Below are positions 35,716 to 44,352 of a stretch of 64,000 nt of DNA, one piece after another. Under the pieces are notes generated by a model. It was not told the DNA's origin and ran no database searches. It was given only the letters and a program-made list of their open reading frames with translations. The position numbers and the translations under genes were made by a program. Every line of letters starts with the position of its first letter. Position 1 is the stretch's first letter. The stretch is from Terriglobia bacterium (lineage in GTDB: Bacteria; Acidobacteriota; Terriglobia; Terriglobales; Acidobacteriaceae), in contig JAIQGE010000006.1 in assembly GCA_020072815.1 (NCBI GenBank), positions 1 to 64,000 on the forward strand, in the 5' to 3' direction.

Positions 35716-35809
35716 GGAGAGATGGCCGAGTGGCTGAAGGCGGCGGTTTGCTAAACCGTTATAGGGGCTAACACTTCTATCGGGGGTTCGAATCCCCCTC
35801 TCTCCGCCA
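35716..35809 (+). tRNA. tRNA-Ser (anticodon GCT)
   Basis: The acceptor stem ggagaga pairs with tctctcc, followed by G and an encoded CCA (35807-35809). The anticodon GCT is at 35750-35752 in the loop ttgctaa. The long variable arm (class II) and the ggttcgaatcc T-loop are present. Confidence 0.96.
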
Positions 35810-36635: not shown

Positions 36636-37439
36636 CTATGCCGGAACCTGACGCTCTACCGACCAGTGCGGCTGGCGTTTTTCCAGGAACGCCAGAATTC
36701 CTTCGGCGGCATCGGGCTGTTGCATGAGTTCGTTCAGGTAAATGTGCTCCAACGCGGGCAAGTCAATTTCCAACGCGCGAACCAGAGGCAGTCGCGCTGC
36801 CTGCGCGGCAAAATGCAATGCCGCGGCTGATCGAGGCAGAAATTCCGACTCCAGCCAAGCGTCAAGTTGGGCCTCGAGTTCCCCGTTGGGGAAAACCTTG
36901 TTGATCAATCCAGCAGCGGCGGCTCTCTGTGCAGTCCAGCTGGCGCCGGTCAGCACCATTTCCGCGGCGCGTCCCGCGCCCATGCGCACGGGCAGCAACG
37001 CCGCCCCTGCAGGCGGAAACACGCCCAGCTTGATCTCCGGCAGCGCGAACTGCGCACTTTCTTCGGCGACGATCAGGTCGCAGGCCAGCGCGAGTTCAAA
37101 TCCTCCGCCCATGCATTGTCCGCGGACGGCGGCGATCAGCGGCGCCGGCGCCCCCGCCATTTTCAGCAGGAGTTTGCGCAGATGAGTGAGCGTATCGCCG
37201 ATCTGGTCCGGCAGATGTTCTTCAATGCTGGCCCCAAAGCTGAAGTGCGGACCCGCCCCGGCGAGCACGATTGCTTTCAGGTCTGTGTGGGGCGTGAGTC
37301 CTTCCAGCGTCAGGTGAAGGCCAAGCATCATGGCCTTATCCAGGATGTTGGCCTTGGGCGCGGACAAGGTGATCCGCGCGACCTGGCCTTGATGCGTGAA
37401 CTCAAGCCGGACTTTGTTCTCTACAACCGTGTTCTCCAT
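36636..37439 (-). CDS. dch: Cyclohexa-1,5-diene-1-carbonyl-CoA hydratase
   Basis: This is the enzyme that adds water to the dienoyl-CoA made by benzoyl-CoA reductase, giving 6-hydroxycyclohex-1-ene-1-carbonyl-CoA. It has 267 residues, close to characterised Dch. The crotonase fold shows GPHFSFGASIEEHLPDQ and the oxyanion region RGQCMGGGFELALACDLIVA, then ALPEIKLGVFPPAG. An earlier frame start at 37475 would overlap the upstream gene by more than 30 bases. AAGGTG six bases before 37439 supports the ATG used. It is the last gene of the cluster, separated by two bases from oah. Confidence 0.88.
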   Translation of the reverse strand: MENTVVENKVRLEFTHQGQVARITLSAPKANILDKAMMLGLHLTLEGLTPHTDLKAIVLAGAGPHFSFGASIEEHLPDQIGDTLTHLRKLLLKMAGAPAPLIAAVRGQCMGGGFELALACDLIVAEESAQFALPEIKLGVFPPAGAALLPVRMGAGRAAEMVLTGASWTAQRAAAAGLINKVFPNGELEAQLDAWLESEFLPRSAAALHFAAQAARLPLVRALEIDLPALEHIYLNELMQQPDAAEGILAFLEKRQPHWSVERQVPA

Positions 37440-37441
37440 GG

Positions 37442-38545
37442 TCACACCTTGGCCATTTCTGCTTTCGCCGTCCATGGAGCGACTTCTTCGATCAATTCTT
37501 CTCCCCAGCGCGCGCCTTCAGCCAGGCGCTGCCGCAGCCGGACGAAATCCACTTCGCGCTGTTCTTTGGTGCCGAAGTGAAATGCGCGGAAGCCCGCGTT
37601 GGCCTCGGTCATCATGTTCAGAGCCAGCCATGCGCGACTGGTCTCGCGGTTGCGGTCCCAGTGTTCCAGTTTGTGCTTGCGCAGGCTCTCGATGGTCTTG
37701 GTCAGGCAGTCCGGCATGGTGTAGAGCAGCTTGGTGCACATGCTCTCCACCGCTTCGTCCAGGAGCTGCAGATCAACGGTGGCCTCGGCCAAGACTTTCT
37801 TGGCGCGATCTTTCTCTTCGCCGGTCTTCCACTCGCCCAGCGCCATGCGTCCGAATTCGTCGAGGTAGCGGTCGGTGACGACGAGAGGATTGGGCGCCCA
37901 CTTCCCATTCGCTTTCAGTACAGGAACAATCTGCGTGAGCCCGCCCAGCGCGTAGAAGCGGTGTGCGCTCCAGGGTTCGCACAGAGTCGCGCTGGCCATG
38001 GCGCGCTCGATTCCCACATACAGCGGAAGAAAATCCGTGCTGCCGCCATCGGGCACGGAGCCGTGCTTGGGCCCGGCCTGGCTGAACACGGCCAGATCGC
38101 TGGCGATGGAAAAGTCGCAGGCCATGCCGATTTCCTGTCCGCCGCCCATGCGCATGCCGTTCACCCGGCAGATCACCGGCTTGTCGCAATGCAGGATGGC
38201 CGTGACCATGTCATTGAACAGCCGCATGTACTGGCGATACTCGGCCGGCGATCCGGCGTAGATTTCGGCATACTCCCGCGTGTTGCCGCCGCTGCAGAAG
38301 GCGCGCGTGCCCGCGCCGGTCAGCACCACGGCCACCGCGGCGCGATCATTGCTGGCTTCGCGCAGCGCCAGGATCACTTCTTTCGCCGTGGACGTGGTGT
38401 AGCTGTTCAGCTCGGCCGGATTGTTCAACGTGATCCACACGTTGTGCAGCCCCGGAACGGCCCGGCCTTCGCGGTCGCGCACCGGCCTCTGTTCCACCAG
38501 GATTTCACGCGGAACAAAATTCTCAGTCAGGTTGTGGTCTTTCAT
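37442..38545 (-). CDS. oah: 6-oxocyclohex-1-ene-1-carbonyl-CoA hydrolase
   Basis: This is the ring-opening hydrolase (BamA/Oah) that gives 3-hydroxypimelyl-CoA. It has 367 residues and is a well-known marker of anaerobic aromatic degradation. Diagnostic blocks are RVNGMRMGGGQEIGMACDFS, FSQAGPKHGSVPDGGSTDFL and SATLCEPWSAHRFYALGG. The crotonase core is extended C-terminally (HKLEHWDRNRETSRAWLALN), as in known Oah. GGGAGG before the ATG sets the start. It lies 18 bases after had. Confidence 0.95.
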   Translation of the reverse strand: MKDHNLTENFVPREILVEQRPVRDREGRAVPGLHNVWITLNNPAELNSYTTSTAKEVILALREASNDRAAVAVVLTGAGTRAFCSGGNTREYAEIYAGSPAEYRQYMRLFNDMVTAILHCDKPVICRVNGMRMGGGQEIGMACDFSIASDLAVFSQAGPKHGSVPDGGSTDFLPLYVGIERAMASATLCEPWSAHRFYALGGLTQIVPVLKANGKWAPNPLVVTDRYLDEFGRMALGEWKTGEEKDRAKKVLAEATVDLQLLDEAVESMCTKLLYTMPDCLTKTIESLRKHKLEHWDRNRETSRAWLALNMMTEANAGFRAFHFGTKEQREVDFVRLRQRLAEGARWGEELIEEVAPWTAKAEMAKV

Positions 38546-38563
38546 CGCAGCCTCCCAGGCTTC

Positions 38564-39631
38564 TTAGTTTGGCACCAGCACCACGCGACGGCGGAATGCG
38601 TGCCGGGCGACTCCGGCAAGCACTTCCGGAGTTTCAGTCAACGAATGGCGCTCAATGAATGGTTCGATGGTGACCTTGCCGCTGAGCACCAGGTCAAGCG
38701 CGGCGGGATAATTTTCCGCCGGACAACCCCAGTTGCCGCGGGCCGTGGCGTCAAAGGCCATCAGGTTTGACAGCCGCACTTCAACTTTCTTCGGCGTGAA
38801 GCCGACGATGGCCAGATGCGCGCCAAAATCGAGCAAGTTGAACGCCGTGATTTGTCCCGCCGGAGTGCCGCTCATCTCAAAAATTTTCAGCGTTGAGCCG
38901 GGCGCAGCTTGCTCGCTGGCAAAGTTGCGCACGCTGGCTTTGAGTTGTTTCTCATCGCCCCGGTCAGAATTCAGGATGAGTGACGCTCCATACTGCTGGG
39001 CCAGTTCCAGGCGTTCGGCATCAATATCAATGGCGATTGCCTTGGCGCCCATCGCCGCGGCAATCTGCACGGCGAAGCTGCCGATGCCACCCGCGCCCAC
39101 GATCACCGCCACGTCGCCGGACTTCAATCCCGAACGGCGAATTGCTTCGTAAGGAGTGGTCACGGCATCAGCCACCACGGACAGGGCTGCCAGAGAAACG
39201 CCCGGAGGCAGCTTGTCTGGAACGCGGCAAAGCCCGCGCGCGGGCACGCGCACGTGCGTGGCAAAGCCTCCATCGCCGTCGTTGCCGGGCATGAACTGCT
39301 TGCGGCAAGTGGTGGGCCGGCCTGCACGGCATGCGGGACATTCGCCGCAAGCGATCACCGCGGGGACAATCACCGCCTGCCCTATCCACAACTGCGCCTT
39401 GGCGCCTGCGTCAACCACGTGGCCGGCAATTTCATGGCCCAGCACCAAAGGAAGGACGTGCCGCGTGGGCACGCCTTCTGAGGCGAAGCCTACATCGGTG
39501 TGGCACACGCCGCATCCGGCTACCTTAACGATGACCTCGTCCGGTCCGGGCTCAAGCTTCGGCAGCTCCGCCAGATCCAGCGGTTTCCCCACGGTCGAAA
39601 GCCGGTATCCATACGCACCCTGGATTGCCAT
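38564..39631 (-). CDS. had: 6-hydroxycyclohex-1-ene-1-carbonyl-CoA dehydrogenase
   Basis: This is a 355-residue zinc alcohol dehydrogenase that oxidises the Dch product to the 6-oxo compound with NAD. Catalytic zinc ligands are Cys40 (with Cys43 in GCGVCHTDVG) and His66-Glu67. Structural zinc cysteines are 95, 98, 101 and 109. The nucleotide loop VGAGGIG is at 178-184. Without the neighbours it would only be called a zinc-dependent dehydrogenase; its position between the reductase and oah gives the specific name. GAGAGGG precedes the ATG. Confidence 0.88.
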   Translation of the reverse strand: MAIQGAYGYRLSTVGKPLDLAELPKLEPGPDEVIVKVAGCGVCHTDVGFASEGVPTRHVLPLVLGHEIAGHVVDAGAKAQLWIGQAVIVPAVIACGECPACRAGRPTTCRKQFMPGNDGDGGFATHVRVPARGLCRVPDKLPPGVSLAALSVVADAVTTPYEAIRRSGLKSGDVAVIVGAGGIGSFAVQIAAAMGAKAIAIDIDAERLELAQQYGASLILNSDRGDEKQLKASVRNFASEQAAPGSTLKIFEMSGTPAGQITAFNLLDFGAHLAIVGFTPKKVEVRLSNLMAFDATARGNWGCPAENYPAALDLVLSGKVTIEPFIERHSLTETPEVLAGVARHAFRRRVVLVPN

Positions 39632-39640
39632 GTTTCCCTC

Positions 39641-40438
39641 TCAGTTCCTGCTGGCCAGGCGGCGCAAACCAAGCACGGCCGCGCCCAGCGCGCAAACGTA
39701 TTCACAATCTTCGGCCACATTCACTTTTACATTGAGCCGCTGCTCCAGCGCCCGCACCATCCCTTGCTGATGGGCAACGCCTCCGATGAAGGTGAGCTCG
39801 CCGTGCAGGCCCACGCGCTTCAGCAGCGCGCCGGCGCGGTCTGCGAGCGAATCATGGATGCCGCGCAAAATGTCTTCCACGCTCACGCCGCTGCTGACGT
39901 GGTTGATGATCTCGCTTTCCGCCAGCACGGCGCATACGCTGCTGATGGGATGCGAGTGGGCGGCATGCAGGGAAAGTTCGCCCACCTGCTCCAGCGGGAC
40001 CTCCAGATATTTCGCCGCCCGGGCGATGAACATGCCGGAGCCGGCAGCGCACTTGTCATTGCTCTTGAAAGTGTTCACTCGGCCGTTTTCCTTGACGGCG
40101 ATGGCCCGCGTGGTCTGGCTGCCAATGTCCAGCACAGCGCCGGGATGGGGAAAGAGAAAATAGGCGCCGCGCGCGGCCGTGGTGATCTCCGTAATGGCGA
40201 TGTCGCGAAAGCTCAGGTTGTAGCGTCCAAAGCCGGTGGCGGCAATGTAGTTCAAGTCCGACCTTAGATTGCCGGCCAGTGCCTGCTCCAGCGCTTCATT
40301 GGCCGCCTGATCAACATTGATGCCGCTGCGGGCGCGTCCGCGGCCCAAAATGCGCAGCTCGCTTCCCGGCGAATCCTGCTCGGCCACCAGCGCTTTGGTG
40401 AATCCTGATCCGCAATCAATTCCGGCTACTAACGGCAT
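39641..40438 (-). CDS. bzdQ: Benzoyl-CoA reductase, ATPase subunit (BzdQ/BcrD-like)
   Basis: The protein has 265 residues of the BadF/BadG/BcrA/BcrD ATPase family (ASKHA fold). The phosphate loop is GIDCGSGFTKAL, with VLDIGSQTTRAIAV as the second phosphate motif. The bridging iron-sulfur cysteines are Cys130 (NDKCAAGSG) and Cys169 (SSVCAVLAESE). It couples ATP hydrolysis to electron transfer into the reductase core. The start at 40438 overlaps the preceding ATPase gene by 23 bases. The P/Q assignment follows gene order and is not certain. Confidence 0.88.
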   Translation of the reverse strand: MPLVAGIDCGSGFTKALVAEQDSPGSELRILGRGRARSGINVDQAANEALEQALAGNLRSDLNYIAATGFGRYNLSFRDIAITEITTAARGAYFLFPHPGAVLDIGSQTTRAIAVKENGRVNTFKSNDKCAAGSGMFIARAAKYLEVPLEQVGELSLHAAHSHPISSVCAVLAESEIINHVSSGVSVEDILRGIHDSLADRAGALLKRVGLHGELTFIGGVAHQQGMVRALEQRLNVKVNVAEDCEYVCALGAAVLGLRRLASRN

Positions 40439-41255
40439 GGTCCCTCCAAACAGTGGCTTCGAAGCTTTCGCCAAGTTTCTCCAGCGAGAACAGCGCAGCG
40501 CCCACCGCGCCCATGAACTGGGCGTCCGGGGTGACGATGATTTTTTGTCCCAGCACCGTTTCCAGGGCGCGCACCATGCCCACGTTGCGGGCCACACCGC
40601 CGGTCATGGTGACCAGCGGCTCAATGTTTACGCGCCGCGCCAGTGACATCGTGCGCTTGGCAATCGCCAGATGCACGCCTTCCATGATGTCTTCCGGTTT
40701 CTTGCCCTGCGAGAGGTACGAGAGAATGTCAGACTCCACAAAGACCGTGCACACGGTTGCTATCTTCACCGGGCGAGTCGCGCGGAGAGACAGCGGCCCG
40801 ATATCATCCAAGCCCAGTCCCATCACTTCGGCGGCATTGGCCAGAAAACGTCCCGTGCCGGCGGCGCATTTGTCATTCATCACAAAGTCCAGGACTTCGC
40901 CGGAAGGGCCGACGCCGATGGCTTTTGCGTCCTGGCCGCCCATGTCAATCACGGTTCGAGTGCCGGGGCAGAGAAAGTGGGCGCCACGGGCATGACAACT
41001 GATCTCCGTCATCTGTGTGTGACCGAAGGAAATGTTGTAGCGGCCATAGCCGGTACCGACCACAAAGCCCACGTCAGCCTGCGCGACGCCCGCCGCCTGG
41101 CAGCACTCGTCGAAGGCCTTTTCCGCGGCTTTGCGGACGTTGGCGCCGGTGTCCATGAGCGACCGCGACAGAATTTTCACGCCGTCGCCGTTGGCCCCCA
41201 CCAGCACCGCTTTGGTCTGCGTTGAACCTACGTCCACTCCTGCTGCAATTCTCAT
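40416..41255 (-). CDS. bzdP: Benzoyl-CoA reductase, ATPase subunit (BzdP/BcrA-like)
   Basis: The protein has 279 residues, the second ASKHA ATPase. It has GVDVGSTQTKAVLV, TGYGRYNISFGHTQMTEISC and VIDMGGQDAKAIGV. The cluster cysteines are Cys130 (NDKCAAGTGRF) and Cys169 (VCTVFVESD), at the same positions as in the partner. At 279 residues it is far shorter than Thauera-type BcrA (over 400), so the pair looks bzd-type. GAGGT before 41255 sets the start; a longer frame to 41354 would run back into bzdO. Confidence 0.88.
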   Translation of the reverse strand: MRIAAGVDVGSTQTKAVLVGANGDGVKILSRSLMDTGANVRKAAEKAFDECCQAAGVAQADVGFVVGTGYGRYNISFGHTQMTEISCHARGAHFLCPGTRTVIDMGGQDAKAIGVGPSGEVLDFVMNDKCAAGTGRFLANAAEVMGLGLDDIGPLSLRATRPVKIATVCTVFVESDILSYLSQGKKPEDIMEGVHLAIAKRTMSLARRVNIEPLVTMTGGVARNVGMVRALETVLGQKIIVTPDAQFMGAVGAALFSLEKLGESFEATVWRDHAVSSRN

Positions 41256-41262
41256 AGTGACC

Positions 41263-42540
41263 TCACGCACCCACGGCGTGTGCTGCCGTGTGCTTGGCGT
41301 GCTCCAGGGATTCAAAAAAAGCATCAATCCGGTTCTTGGTTTGCGCTTCGGCAAAATAGCGCGGGTCTTCCAGGTCGGACTCTATGTACAACGTGGGAAC
41401 GCCCAGTTGCTTGGTGAAGTAGTCGCGCATGTCTCCCTGTCCGGCGGAAAACAGGCGGCAACTCTTGACGAAGTGGATGATCACGCCGTCGGCCTTCCAT
41501 TCCTTCACGTAGCGTGCAATCTGGTCGTAACGTTGCAGATAGTTACGGTTCGTCACGTTTTGCGCGAGCATATGCATGGCCACCGATTCGAAAGGAGTCT
41601 TCGAATCGTGCCGGAACCCGAACTCCCACAACCCGCCGACGGTGGAATAGGTGGACGCCACAGCAACCGCCTTCCAACTGGCAAACATGTCACGGAAGGT
41701 GCGGAAGTAGGGATACGGCGGCGGGCCCTCCACTACCACGCGGAAGCGCTCCTGGTCATAGACGCCTTCGCCGGCTTGGACTTTCTGCTTGAGTTCGTTG
41801 AGCGCCGCGCGGAAGAACTCCACGCCTTCACGCTTGCCGCGGTAGACGTACAAAGGGCCCATCAGGGTGATGGCATCGAAGTAAGCGTCAAATGGCGACG
41901 GGGAATTCTTGGCCAGGTGCTTGATCTGTGACCAGAGGTCCTCGACTTCGCTGGAATAGGCCACCGACTGCTGGAAGCGGTCGTAGTCGAACTTGCGTCC
42001 GGTCAGCTTCTCCAGCTGCACCACAACTTCCTTGAGCTGCCGGACAACGTAGTCAATATCTGCCTGCGAAGGTTGGTCGCCGCGGAGAAAGGGCACGTCC
42101 ACAACGTACAGAGGCGCGCCGGTGAATGCGGCCACGTGCTCGAACCATTTCACGTAGGTGTTGCAGCCGACAAAGTTGCACAACACCAGCGTGGGCTTGG
42201 GCAACCGGCCGCCGGTGGGGGTGATGCCTTTGAGCATGCAGCCGATATCGGCCTTCACGTAGGCGCAATTGTCTCCGGCGTAACCCATCTCCTCGGCCGC
42301 AAGAATCGGCTCCAGCGACTGGTGGCGGATGGCCAGCTGCAGCGCGTTCACTTCAGGATAGAGCGGAATCGCGCCAAAGCCTTCCAGCAGTTCCACGCAG
42401 TTGCCGGAAATCATCATGGACACCGTGGGCGGGTCTCCGGTCTCAGCCGAGTGGTCCAGACGCTGGTACCAATCCAGCATCAGGTCCTTTTGCTGCTGGT
42501 GAATGCTTCCGCGGTATTCGCTTGTAGATTTTTCGGCCAT
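41263..42540 (-). CDS. bzdO: Benzoyl-CoA reductase subunit BzdO/BcrB
   Basis: The protein has 425 residues of the HgdB/BcrB 2-hydroxyacyl-CoA dehydratase superfamily and is one half of the catalytic heterodimer. Conserved cysteines include SGNCVELLEGFG, DNCAYVKADIGCMLKG, LVLCNFVGCNTYVKWFEHV and VKSCRLFSAGQGDMRDYF. Some of these bind the [4Fe-4S] cluster next to the substrate. AAGGAG about nine bases upstream supports 42540 over 42570. The stop is seven bases from the ATPase start. Confidence 0.92.
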   Translation of the reverse strand: MAEKSTSEYRGSIHQQQKDLMLDWYQRLDHSAETGDPPTVSMMISGNCVELLEGFGAIPLYPEVNALQLAIRHQSLEPILAAEEMGYAGDNCAYVKADIGCMLKGITPTGGRLPKPTLVLCNFVGCNTYVKWFEHVAAFTGAPLYVVDVPFLRGDQPSQADIDYVVRQLKEVVVQLEKLTGRKFDYDRFQQSVAYSSEVEDLWSQIKHLAKNSPSPFDAYFDAITLMGPLYVYRGKREGVEFFRAALNELKQKVQAGEGVYDQERFRVVVEGPPPYPYFRTFRDMFASWKAVAVASTYSTVGGLWEFGFRHDSKTPFESVAMHMLAQNVTNRNYLQRYDQIARYVKEWKADGVIIHFVKSCRLFSAGQGDMRDYFTKQLGVPTLYIESDLEDPRYFAEAQTKNRIDAFFESLEHAKHTAAHAVGA

Positions 42541-42596
42541 TACGGCTGCTCCTTCTTGGTCAGGTACCAATCAGTCTGGTTTTCAGTCTGGTCTGC

Positions 42597-43751
42597 TTAA
42601 TCAAAGACCAGGGATTCGACGAACGTCTCCACTTCCGTGCGCAGGCGATCAAAGGTGAACAGCTTTTCTTCGAACTCCAGCAGCAGGTGCGGCAGACCCA
42701 TTTCGTCAACTTTCTTCTTGAAGAGCACAAAATCGAAATACGCCGGCTCGCAGAACTTGGCGATCAGGAAGATCACGGCTTCCGCGCGCGTGTTGCGGAC
42801 CTTCTCCGCCAGGCCTTCCCAGCGCGGCTTGGAAAAATCGTGGCGCACGGAGGAATAGACCGAACGCTGCACGTAACTCTCAGCCAGCGCGTGCACCGGG
42901 TCGCCCGTGACGGGAACGTCTTCGGTGAACCAGCGCTGCGCTATGGCCAGGTCGTCTTCCACAATGTCGCAGCCGGCGTTTTCCAGCAGTCGAATGAGCT
43001 CTAGAGGAGGCTGCTCGCAGAACGCGCCTTCAATGACCACGCGGATGGCGTCCCGCTTCTTTCCCGGCCGAGTTGGAATTTGTTCGAGGGCCTGCTTCAG
43101 GACCTGGATGTGCTCCTCCACCGGCATCAGGTTGCCGCTGCGGATGAGCACGTACGATTCCCACGCCCGTAACAGGTGCGGGCTTTGCGTGCGCAATTCG
43201 TAGAGTTGCCGCACCAGGCGACGCTGTTCGTTGTAGAGCGCGATGCTCCGGCGCAGCGCTTCATCCTGAATCGGAGCTCCGCCCAACCGCTCCAGTTCCG
43301 TGATGATCCGGCGGTATTCGGCTCTGAGGAACTCCACGCTGGTCTCTGAAGTGCTGTGCGGCAGATGCAGGAAATCCACATACGTCTGCGGGTAGTTGCG
43401 CTTGACCACGAAGCAGAGATTGCGGGCGGAGTCGCAGATGGAAGAGAAAAGCAGGCCGTCGAAAGGCTCCAGATGGCCGGTCATGGCCATCTCCATGGTG
43501 GTTTTGATGATGGAGCAGATGAACGAGCCGAAGCGCGAATCGGCGTGCTGGATGTCCAGCCGGTCGCCCGCTCCGCTCAGCATCACGGGAAGCATGCCCG
43601 CGGCGTGGACAAGCTCCATCGGCGCATAGACGGGAAAGAACGCTACGGATTTTGCTCCGGGATGCTGCTCTTTCCATTGCCGCACGCCGGCAAAAGTGAG
43701 GTCCTGCATCCCCTCATAAAGACTATCGAACGTTCGTTCGAATTGTTCCAT
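42597..43751 (-). CDS. bzdN: Benzoyl-CoA reductase subunit BzdN/BcrC
   Basis: The protein has 384 residues, the second half of the HgdB/BcrC-type core. Recognisable blocks are FFPVYAPMELVHAAGMLPVM, SRFGSFICSIIKTTMEMAM, LFSSICDSARNLCFV and LIAKFCEPAYFDFVLFKKKV, with the cysteines expected to bind the active-site cluster. It is the first gene of the unit. The ATG at 43751 is used; a GTG at 43766 is also possible. Downstream bzdO follows after 56 bases. Upstream lies a CRP/FNR-like palindrome. Confidence 0.9.
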   Translation of the reverse strand: MEQFERTFDSLYEGMQDLTFAGVRQWKEQHPGAKSVAFFPVYAPMELVHAAGMLPVMLSGAGDRLDIQHADSRFGSFICSIIKTTMEMAMTGHLEPFDGLLFSSICDSARNLCFVVKRNYPQTYVDFLHLPHSTSETSVEFLRAEYRRIITELERLGGAPIQDEALRRSIALYNEQRRLVRQLYELRTQSPHLLRAWESYVLIRSGNLMPVEEHIQVLKQALEQIPTRPGKKRDAIRVVIEGAFCEQPPLELIRLLENAGCDIVEDDLAIAQRWFTEDVPVTGDPVHALAESYVQRSVYSSVRHDFSKPRWEGLAEKVRNTRAEAVIFLIAKFCEPAYFDFVLFKKKVDEMGLPHLLLEFEEKLFTFDRLRTEVETFVESLVFD

Positions 43752-43785
43752 GCAGCAATGATTCACCTAGGGCGGGCGGAAGGGA

Positions 43786-43917: not shown

Positions 43918-44352
43918 TTACAGAGTGTGCAGATACGCGATCATGTCCTGCAATTCCCGCTGATTCACAGAATCTCCGAAGTGCGGCATCATCCCGCGGC
44001 CCTGCATGATGGCTTGGATCACGTGCTCGTCGGTGGCAGTGAGGCCGCTGGGCAGGTACGGCTTGCCGTACATCCCCTTCAATCCCGGACCTTTGTTGCC
44101 ATGGGTGGAATACGCAGGATGGCAACTGAGGCAGTAGAGATTGTAGACGCGCCGCCCGCGGGACTGCTCGGCGTTGAGCCCGAGTTCGGCGTCCGTCATG
44201 GTTGCGGGATCTTTGCCGCAGCCGGCGATGGCCAGCAGCAATGCCGCCGCAAGCGCTACAAGAAGGATGGACGCTGTTTGCCTCAAATGACTATTATGTC
44301 TGGAGACAGCCGTTTTGCAAACCCCGTTTGCAGTACAAATGGTGCGAAGCAC
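43918..44352 (-). CDS. Mono-heme cytochrome c lipoprotein
   Basis: The protein has up to 144 residues. A heme-binding motif CLSCH (YNLYCLSCHPAYSTHG) and a distal Met (GRGMMPHFGD) define a class I cytochrome c. The hydrophobic segment ends in LLAIAGC, a good lipobox, so the mature protein would be a lipid-anchored periplasmic electron carrier. The start is uncertain: a GTG at 44352 and a TTG around 44286 are both possible. It lies 167 bases upstream of bzdN on the same strand. Confidence 0.85.
   Translation of the reverse strand: MLRTICTANGVCKTAVSRHNSHLRQTASILLVALAAALLLAIAGCGKDPATMTDAELGLNAEQSRGRRVYNLYCLSCHPAYSTHGNKGPGLKGMYGKPYLPSGLTATDEHVIQAIMQGRGMMPHFGDSVNQRELQDMIAYLHTL

Follow-up and report, generated by a model that had tools for sequence, protein, structure and literature searches.

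Seven genes for ring reduction and ring opening

The window analysed here is a 64,000-nucleotide stretch of one contig (G000:C6:1-64000) of a 5.29 Mb genome assembled in 32 contigs, with a completeness of 100. Between positions 36636 and 43766 it carries, on the minus strand, seven tightly spaced frames with no internal stop, assigned to an ATP-dependent aryl-CoA reductase of class I and to the enzymes Had, Oah and Dch (Table 1). The original prediction had read seven consecutive minus-strand genes with small or negative gaps, and the place, strand, intact frames and tight packing agreed with it. So did the joining of such a reductase to Had, Oah and Dch in a single operon of an acidobacterium.

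Starts were chosen as those lying 3' of plausible ribosome-binding sites, the choice being weaker for ATPase A and Dch. BcrC begins either at GTG 43766 or at ATG 43751, the latter being the start given originally. With the chosen starts, the intergenic gaps were about 56, 7, -23, 9, 18 and 2 bases. Scans for promoters and terminators returned little beyond what shuffled sequences gave. The identical seven genes, in the identical order, were found in all three of the other same-genus genomes for which an Oah neighbourhood was retrieved. When the window and the next 20 kb were compared by blastn, 9 of 11 related loci gave no match beyond the operon. Hence, the gene set is not a product of chance. 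A gene for a small c-type cytochrome (43918-44352) lies on the same strand upstream of BcrC, across a gap of about 150 bases.

Table 1. Genes of the operon, with the evidence for each assignment and the start chosen
Product	Coordinates	Strand	Evidence	Start
BcrC-like subunit, electron-transfer half of the catalytic dimer	42597..43766	-	TIGR02263, PF06050, MbdN match	GTG 43766 or ATG 43751
BcrB-like catalytic subunit	41263..42570	-	TIGR02260, MbdO match	likely ATG 42540
ATPase (activase) subunit A	40416..41261	-	PF01869, TIGR00241, MbdQ match	likely ATG 41255
ATPase (activase) subunit D	39641..40438	-	PF01869, TIGR00241, MbdQ match	ATG 40438
Had	38564..39631	-	TIGR03201 above cut-off	ATG 39631
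Oah	37442..38545	-	TIGR03200 above cut-off, tree, approximately unbiased test	ATG 38545
Dch, cyclohexa-1,5-dienecarbonyl-CoA hydratase	36636..37475	-	TIGR03189 best model, below cut-off	likely ATG 37439

Oah and Had passed the cut-offs of their NCBIfam equivalog models (Oah, 548.5 bits against 464.45; Had, 438.1 against 338.65). For Dch, TIGR03189 was the top NCBIfam model by about 70 bits at a score of 217.3, under the cut-off of 292.5; its identification in the original prediction stands as to the best model and falls short as to the score. BcrB and BcrC also scored under the cut-offs of their NCBIfam models (325.9 bits against 486.55, and 324.0 against 421.15), which were still the top-scoring ones. 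ATPase D fell short of the TIGR02261 cut-off (172.3 against 312.85) and ATPase A of that of TIGR03192 (190.9 against 380.2), the top model for both being the general activase domain TIGR00241, passed by D with 205.5 bits and by A with 257.3 (cut-off 125.4). Pfam returned two HGD-D subunits (PF06050), two BcrAD ATPases (PF01869; 229 bits for A, 172 for D), two crotonases and one zinc alcohol dehydrogenase. Two HGD-D-type catalytic subunits and two BcrAD-type ATPases, the gene make-up of a class I reductase, are adjacent.

The top PDB matches were subunits of Mbd, the Thauera/Azoarcus 3-methylbenzoyl-CoA reductase (PDB 9g87, 9gai; Mbd is treated in the part of PMC4424350 used here): MbdN for BcrC (292 bits), MbdO for BcrB (236 bits) and MbdQ for both ATPases (312 bits for A, 218 for D). 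In sequence comparison, these scored above HadC, HadB and the dehydratase activator. The 2-hydroxyacyl-CoA dehydratase models gave 211 bits for BcrB and 222 for BcrC, compared with 326 and 324 for the reductase models, and their own cut-offs are 750 and 700. The reductase models thus outscored those for dehydratases, and Oah and Had lay above their cut-offs, which upholds the proposal of a class I aryl-CoA reductase as opposed to a dehydratase or generic crotonases. An AlphaFold model of BcrB, with a predicted local distance difference test score of 84, matched MbdO, HadB and BzdO about equally, and the structure search does not separate reductase from dehydratase.

A separate clade of the reductase

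Three known class I types, BCR, MBR and BZD, are set out in the part of PMC11971306 used here. Trees of BcrB and BcrC were built from 62 rows picked to represent groups; the reference rows for the BCR type were acidobacterial, and neither proteobacterial Bcr/Bad nor Magnetospirillum MbrCBAD rows were among them. A new reductase clade of 39 rows stood on one side of a branch supported at 97/99 for BcrB and, more weakly, at 93/77 for BcrC. Support for the window's subclade was 99/94 and 100/97. In both trees, the window fell outside the BCR clade (100/100) and outside the MBR clade that includes MbdO/MbdN (100/100). Warnings from the tree programs concerned long branches for MbdO and the meeting of two long branches, those of L038/L039 and the BCR type. 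In BLAST/HMMER comparisons, the window BcrB was about 42% identical to BCR-type acidobacterial subunits, against 35% for those of the MBR type. Judged from these sequences, the window reductase is placed outside the described types BCR, MBR and BZD, in trees without Magnetospirillum MbrCBAD. Membership of the MBR type, at which the PDB matches had hinted, was ruled out by the trees. The expectation of a canonical Bcr/Bad, Mbd or Bzd reductase set was not borne out, the reductase being in a separate clade.

Cys102, Cys136 and Cys371 of BcrB were invariant in the alignment and aligned with Cys95, Cys128 and Cys380 of BzdO, which are ligands of its active-site [4Fe-4S] cluster according to the same part of PMC11971306. 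Glu73 was invariant across all rows aligned there; it would be the counterpart of the catalytic Glu65 of BzdO, a protein not aligned at that site. BcrB thus has the three active-site cluster cysteines and the predicted catalytic glutamate of class I. At the position of BzdO His131, the window clade has a tyrosine (Tyr139), and the BCR-type rows and MbdO have phenylalanine. Of the six double-cubane cysteines of BzdN, BcrC retains three (Cys84, Cys111 and Cys339), the other three positions being occupied by Pro45, Ala274 and Ser305. Cys250 of BcrC was present in MbdN and in all rows of the new, MBR and BCR types, and absent from HadC and BzdN. Cys266 was nearly as widespread (53 of 59 rows in one subgroup, five of seven MBR-type rows) and has no HadC equivalent. 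It is possible that Cys250 and Cys266 are ligands of a second cluster. ATPase A carries Cys132 and Cys171, in NDKCAAG and TVC motifs, and ATPase D carries Cys127 and Cys166.

When GTDB genomes were scanned for relatives, at least 566 were confirmed. The best 80 of these carried 11 phylum labels, taken from record titles, with 12 left unplaced: Acidobacteriota (24), Planctomycetota (10), Rokuibacteriota (8), Chloroflexota (8), Myxococcota (5), Bacillota (5), Elusimicrobiota (2), Methylomirabilota (2), Vulcanimicrobiota (2), Caldifarciminota (1) and Binatota (1). Nearly all are metagenome bins, and individual labels may be wrong. It may be noted that two loci of the same sample series, L132 and L133, have near-identical BcrB but are titled planctomycete and Vicinamibacteraceae, one bin label probably being wrong. 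A plasmid collection contained distant BcrB homologues only, of at most 28% identity. This widespread branch of the reductases is apparently unstudied.

Host, occurrence and the hybrid operon

The 23S fragment at bases 1-935 was 96% identical to the genome of L057 (Terriglobia bacterium isolate S3, SRVP18 soil). Other matches longer than 300 bases gave 80-88%, in five of the 13 genomes searched. The host belongs to the phylum Acidobacteriota, which the original prediction had called probable, and its class is likely Terriglobia.

The same prediction held the pathway to be unexpected in Acidobacteriota. Phylum scans ruled out that the trait is rare: among 396 genomes, a BcrB-like match (E <= 1e-60) was found in 53 and an Oah above cut-off in 35, and on these counts that view needs revision. 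Thirty-three of the 53 exceeded the BCR cut-off. The 20 below it comprised two partial high-scoring fragments (G311, G019), seven that grouped with MbdO, two of a side group (L038, L039) and nine of the window's kind. Seventeen of the last 18 were typed by a 117-row BcrB tree, from which the near-duplicates L117, L095 and L072 and rows of <85% coverage or <34.5% identity were left out; G389 (L047), in which the gene is cut, was typed by identity alone (75%). Within the window's class, BcrB-like matches occurred in 30 of 299 genomes, five above the cut-off and 25, not typed singly, below. Oah was above cut-off in 13 of 150 close relatives and in four of nine genomes of the same genus, including the window's. 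No openly licensed paper was found whose title or abstract start dealt with class I reductases of Acidobacteriota. For this phylum, the gap is one of experiment, not of occurrence.

A tRNA-Ser(GCT) gene lies at 35716-35809, about 0.8 kb past the operon end, and the same tRNA is near the operon in L063 and L206. In the blastn comparison, L063 also shares the tRNA-Ser region, and L206 shares this tRNA and a stretch at 49.2-51.0 kb. In L204, a tRNA-Ala adjoins the operon. Four of 17 window-subclade loci thus have a tRNA gene no more than about 2.2 kb from the operon, and none was found in the three other loci examined. The G+C content of the operon (61.0%) was close to that of the window (59.7%).

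We examined which reductase stands beside Oah in the 13 Oah-bearing relatives. It was of the window's kind in nine; in one more (G475), the ATPases and a partial BcrB assign it to that kind. The remaining three had a BCR-type reductase (G073), a HadB-like subunit (G491) and a contig too short to tell (G542). No Dch was detected in L207 and L210, which belong to the nine loci of the window's kind. Between the window and G073, identity was 77% for Oah and 65% for Had, against 42% for BcrB and 39% for BcrC. In the Oah tree, the window type lay inside the BCR-type rows (100/97). Holding the BCR-type Oah rows together was rejected by the approximately unbiased test (p 0.0013), and holding the BCR-type Had rows together was not (p 0.232); these tests left out the duplicate loci L190-L202, L203 and L210, as well as L055, L212 and L213. 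Since Oah is nested within the Oah of BCR-type operons and the reductase stands in a clade apart, the operon appears to be a hybrid of a new-clade reductase and a Had-Oah pair of the kind seen with BCR-type reductases in other acidobacteria. With moderate confidence, these sequences point to a recombination of reductases and ring-opening modules.

Neighbours were compared at 91 new-type loci (L117, L095, L072, L203, L210 and L055 were left out). The new clade adjoins alternative modules: Oah/Had/Dch; an amidohydrolase with a BadH-like short-chain dehydrogenase/reductase (SDR); and other crotonases with an alcohol dehydrogenase. In 12 of the 91, Oah was present at an identity of 55% or more, and three others had Had and ended at a contig edge. 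An amidohydrolase was found in 16, and in 17 an alcohol dehydrogenase was accompanied by a crotonase distantly resembling Oah; the amidohydrolase and the BadH-like SDR were identified by Pfam/NCBIfam in representative loci. None of the 91 had Oah together with an amidohydrolase, an absence that is soft because many contigs are short. A BCR-type locus (L149, 11600-12673) has an amidohydrolase 75% identical to that of the new-type loci, so this module pairs with BCR-type reductases too. In L212 (4269-10295, from a genome of the same order), Had, Oah and Dch adjoin a HadB-like subunit (208 bits with the dehydratase model; none of the matches listed at 1e-40 was to TIGR02260), which may be a further kind of reductase coupled to the same module. 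Downstream of Dch in L061 (17363-20742, a Sulfotelmatobacter record) are an SDR, an HMGL-like enzyme and a sugar-porter-family transporter.

The rest of the pathway was sought in the window's own genome. A benzoate-CoA ligase-family gene on another contig scored 640 bits against a cut-off of 375; the same model was passed in one of 14 control genomes. No catabolic genes were detected among nine nearby proteins scanned. An aerobic Box pathway as the partner of this ligase was not supported, the sole BoxB match in the genome scoring 202 bits against a cut-off of 499. The genome has genes for pyruvate:ferredoxin and 2-oxoacid:ferredoxin oxidoreductases, two aa3-type oxidase subunits and an NrfA-family cytochrome (429 bits, five CxxCH motifs). 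The molybdopterin matches identified were NuoG, formate-dehydrogenase-like frames with internal TGA and unnamed members, none of them named nitrate reductase. Two of the formate-dehydrogenase-like genes (C1:60386-61687 and C5:177410-179050; L177, L180) have an in-frame TGA where selenocysteine is usually encoded, which suggests that they encode selenoproteins.

Proposed function and comparison with known systems

It is probable that this hybrid operon serves the ATP-driven, oxygen-independent reduction of benzoyl-CoA or a near analogue, followed by ring opening to 3-hydroxypimelyl-CoA. We infer the substrate, the activity, the electron donor, the direction and the conditions of use as follows. 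ATP hydrolysis by the two ATPases would drive electrons from reduced ferredoxin to BcrC, which would pass them to an aqua-[4Fe-4S] cluster of BcrB. BcrB would then hydrogenate the ring of benzoyl-CoA, or of a very close analogue, to cyclohexa-1,5-diene-1-carbonyl-CoA. This product would be hydrated by Dch, oxidised by Had and opened hydrolytically by Oah to 3-hydroxypimelyl-CoA. The original prediction had called the set sufficient for the whole conversion from benzoyl-CoA. The gene set is there, but benzoyl-CoA is the operon's point of entry, the ligase-family gene being on a different contig, and reduced ferredoxin would have to be supplied from elsewhere.

A main substrate other than benzoyl-CoA is unlikely but has some points in its favour. 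The same chemistry would then act on another or a substituted aryl-CoA (methyl-, hydroxy- or plant-phenolic-derived), and Had and Oah would accept the substituent. The nearest solved relatives are subunits of a 3-methylbenzoyl-CoA reductase, most new-clade loci adjoin downstream modules other than Oah, and a set dedicated to 4-methylbenzoyl-CoA, which includes a separate Oah-2 and Had-2, is described for Magnetospirillum in the part of PMC4268860 used here. However, Oah and Had pass the models for unsubstituted intermediates, Oah groups with that of BCR-type operons, the MBR-type sequences form another clade, and the window BcrB is nearer to the BCR-type than to the MBR-type acidobacterial subunits. 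Recent acquisition of an operon that is silent or non-functional would fit the patchy presence of Oah in the genus, the differing flanks of most related loci and the occasional neighbouring tRNA gene; we regard this as improbable, as the seven frames are intact, the order is kept in same-genus kin and the cluster cysteines are invariant. Hardly credible is a 2-hydroxyacyl-CoA dehydratase with activators beside crotonases by chance: it shares the superfamily, and HadB is structurally as close as MbdO, but dehydratase models and sequences score lower, there are two ATPase genes, BcrC has the BCR-specific Cys250 and the linkage to Had-Oah-Dch is repeated; a plain dehydratase was ruled out by the scores and the BcrC cysteines.

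Class I dearomatisation ranks among the most difficult reductions in biology, and a few proteobacteria have been the main subjects of its study. Tentatively, and with some doubt, we suggest that the reductase of the window represents one more subclass of the ATP-dependent aryl-CoA reductases, in addition to BCR, MBR and BZD, in about ten bacterial phyla. This subclass may combine with three or more exchangeable ring-opening modules, which perhaps serve different aryl-CoAs. In Terriglobia, it might have replaced the BCR-type enzyme in a benzoyl-CoA pathway, so that soil acidobacteria which respire oxygen would have an anoxic route for plant aromatics. If so, a separate, widespread lineage with different partners would add to the substrates and organisms known so far, and abundant soil acidobacteria would gain a testable anoxic role in plant-aromatic turnover. 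Moreover, surveys based on the curated BcrB/BcrC cut-offs would miss much of this lineage: 25 of the 30 BcrB-like genomes in the window's class, not typed singly, fall below the cut-off.

Compared with HadBC (2-hydroxyisocaproyl-CoA dehydratase, PDB 3o3m), the window reductase has the same fold and the three active-site cysteines. It differs in its lower sequence scores to HadBC, in BcrC Cys250 and Cys266, which have no equivalents in HadC, and in its operon partners. With the BZD type (BzdNO, PDB 8s02), it shares the active-site cysteines and Tyr97 of BzdO, whereas three of the six BzdN double-cubane cysteines are missing from BcrC and BzdO His131 is replaced by tyrosine. The MBR type (Mbd) provides the top solved-structure match for all four subunits and has the same cluster cysteines, BcrC Cys250 and Cys266 included; the window is nevertheless in a separate clade, with a BcrB identity of about 35% to MBR-type acidobacterial rows. 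The BCR type (Thauera/Rhodopseudomonas, TIGR02260) provides the best curated models for BcrB and BcrC, and the window Had and Oah are closest to those of BCR-type acidobacterial operons. In contrast, BcrB and BcrC score under the curated cut-offs of that type (326 against 487 and 324 against 421 bits) and fall in a separate clade, and the gene order is reductase-Had-Oah-Dch in the window and Had-Oah-(Dch)-reductase in the BCR type.

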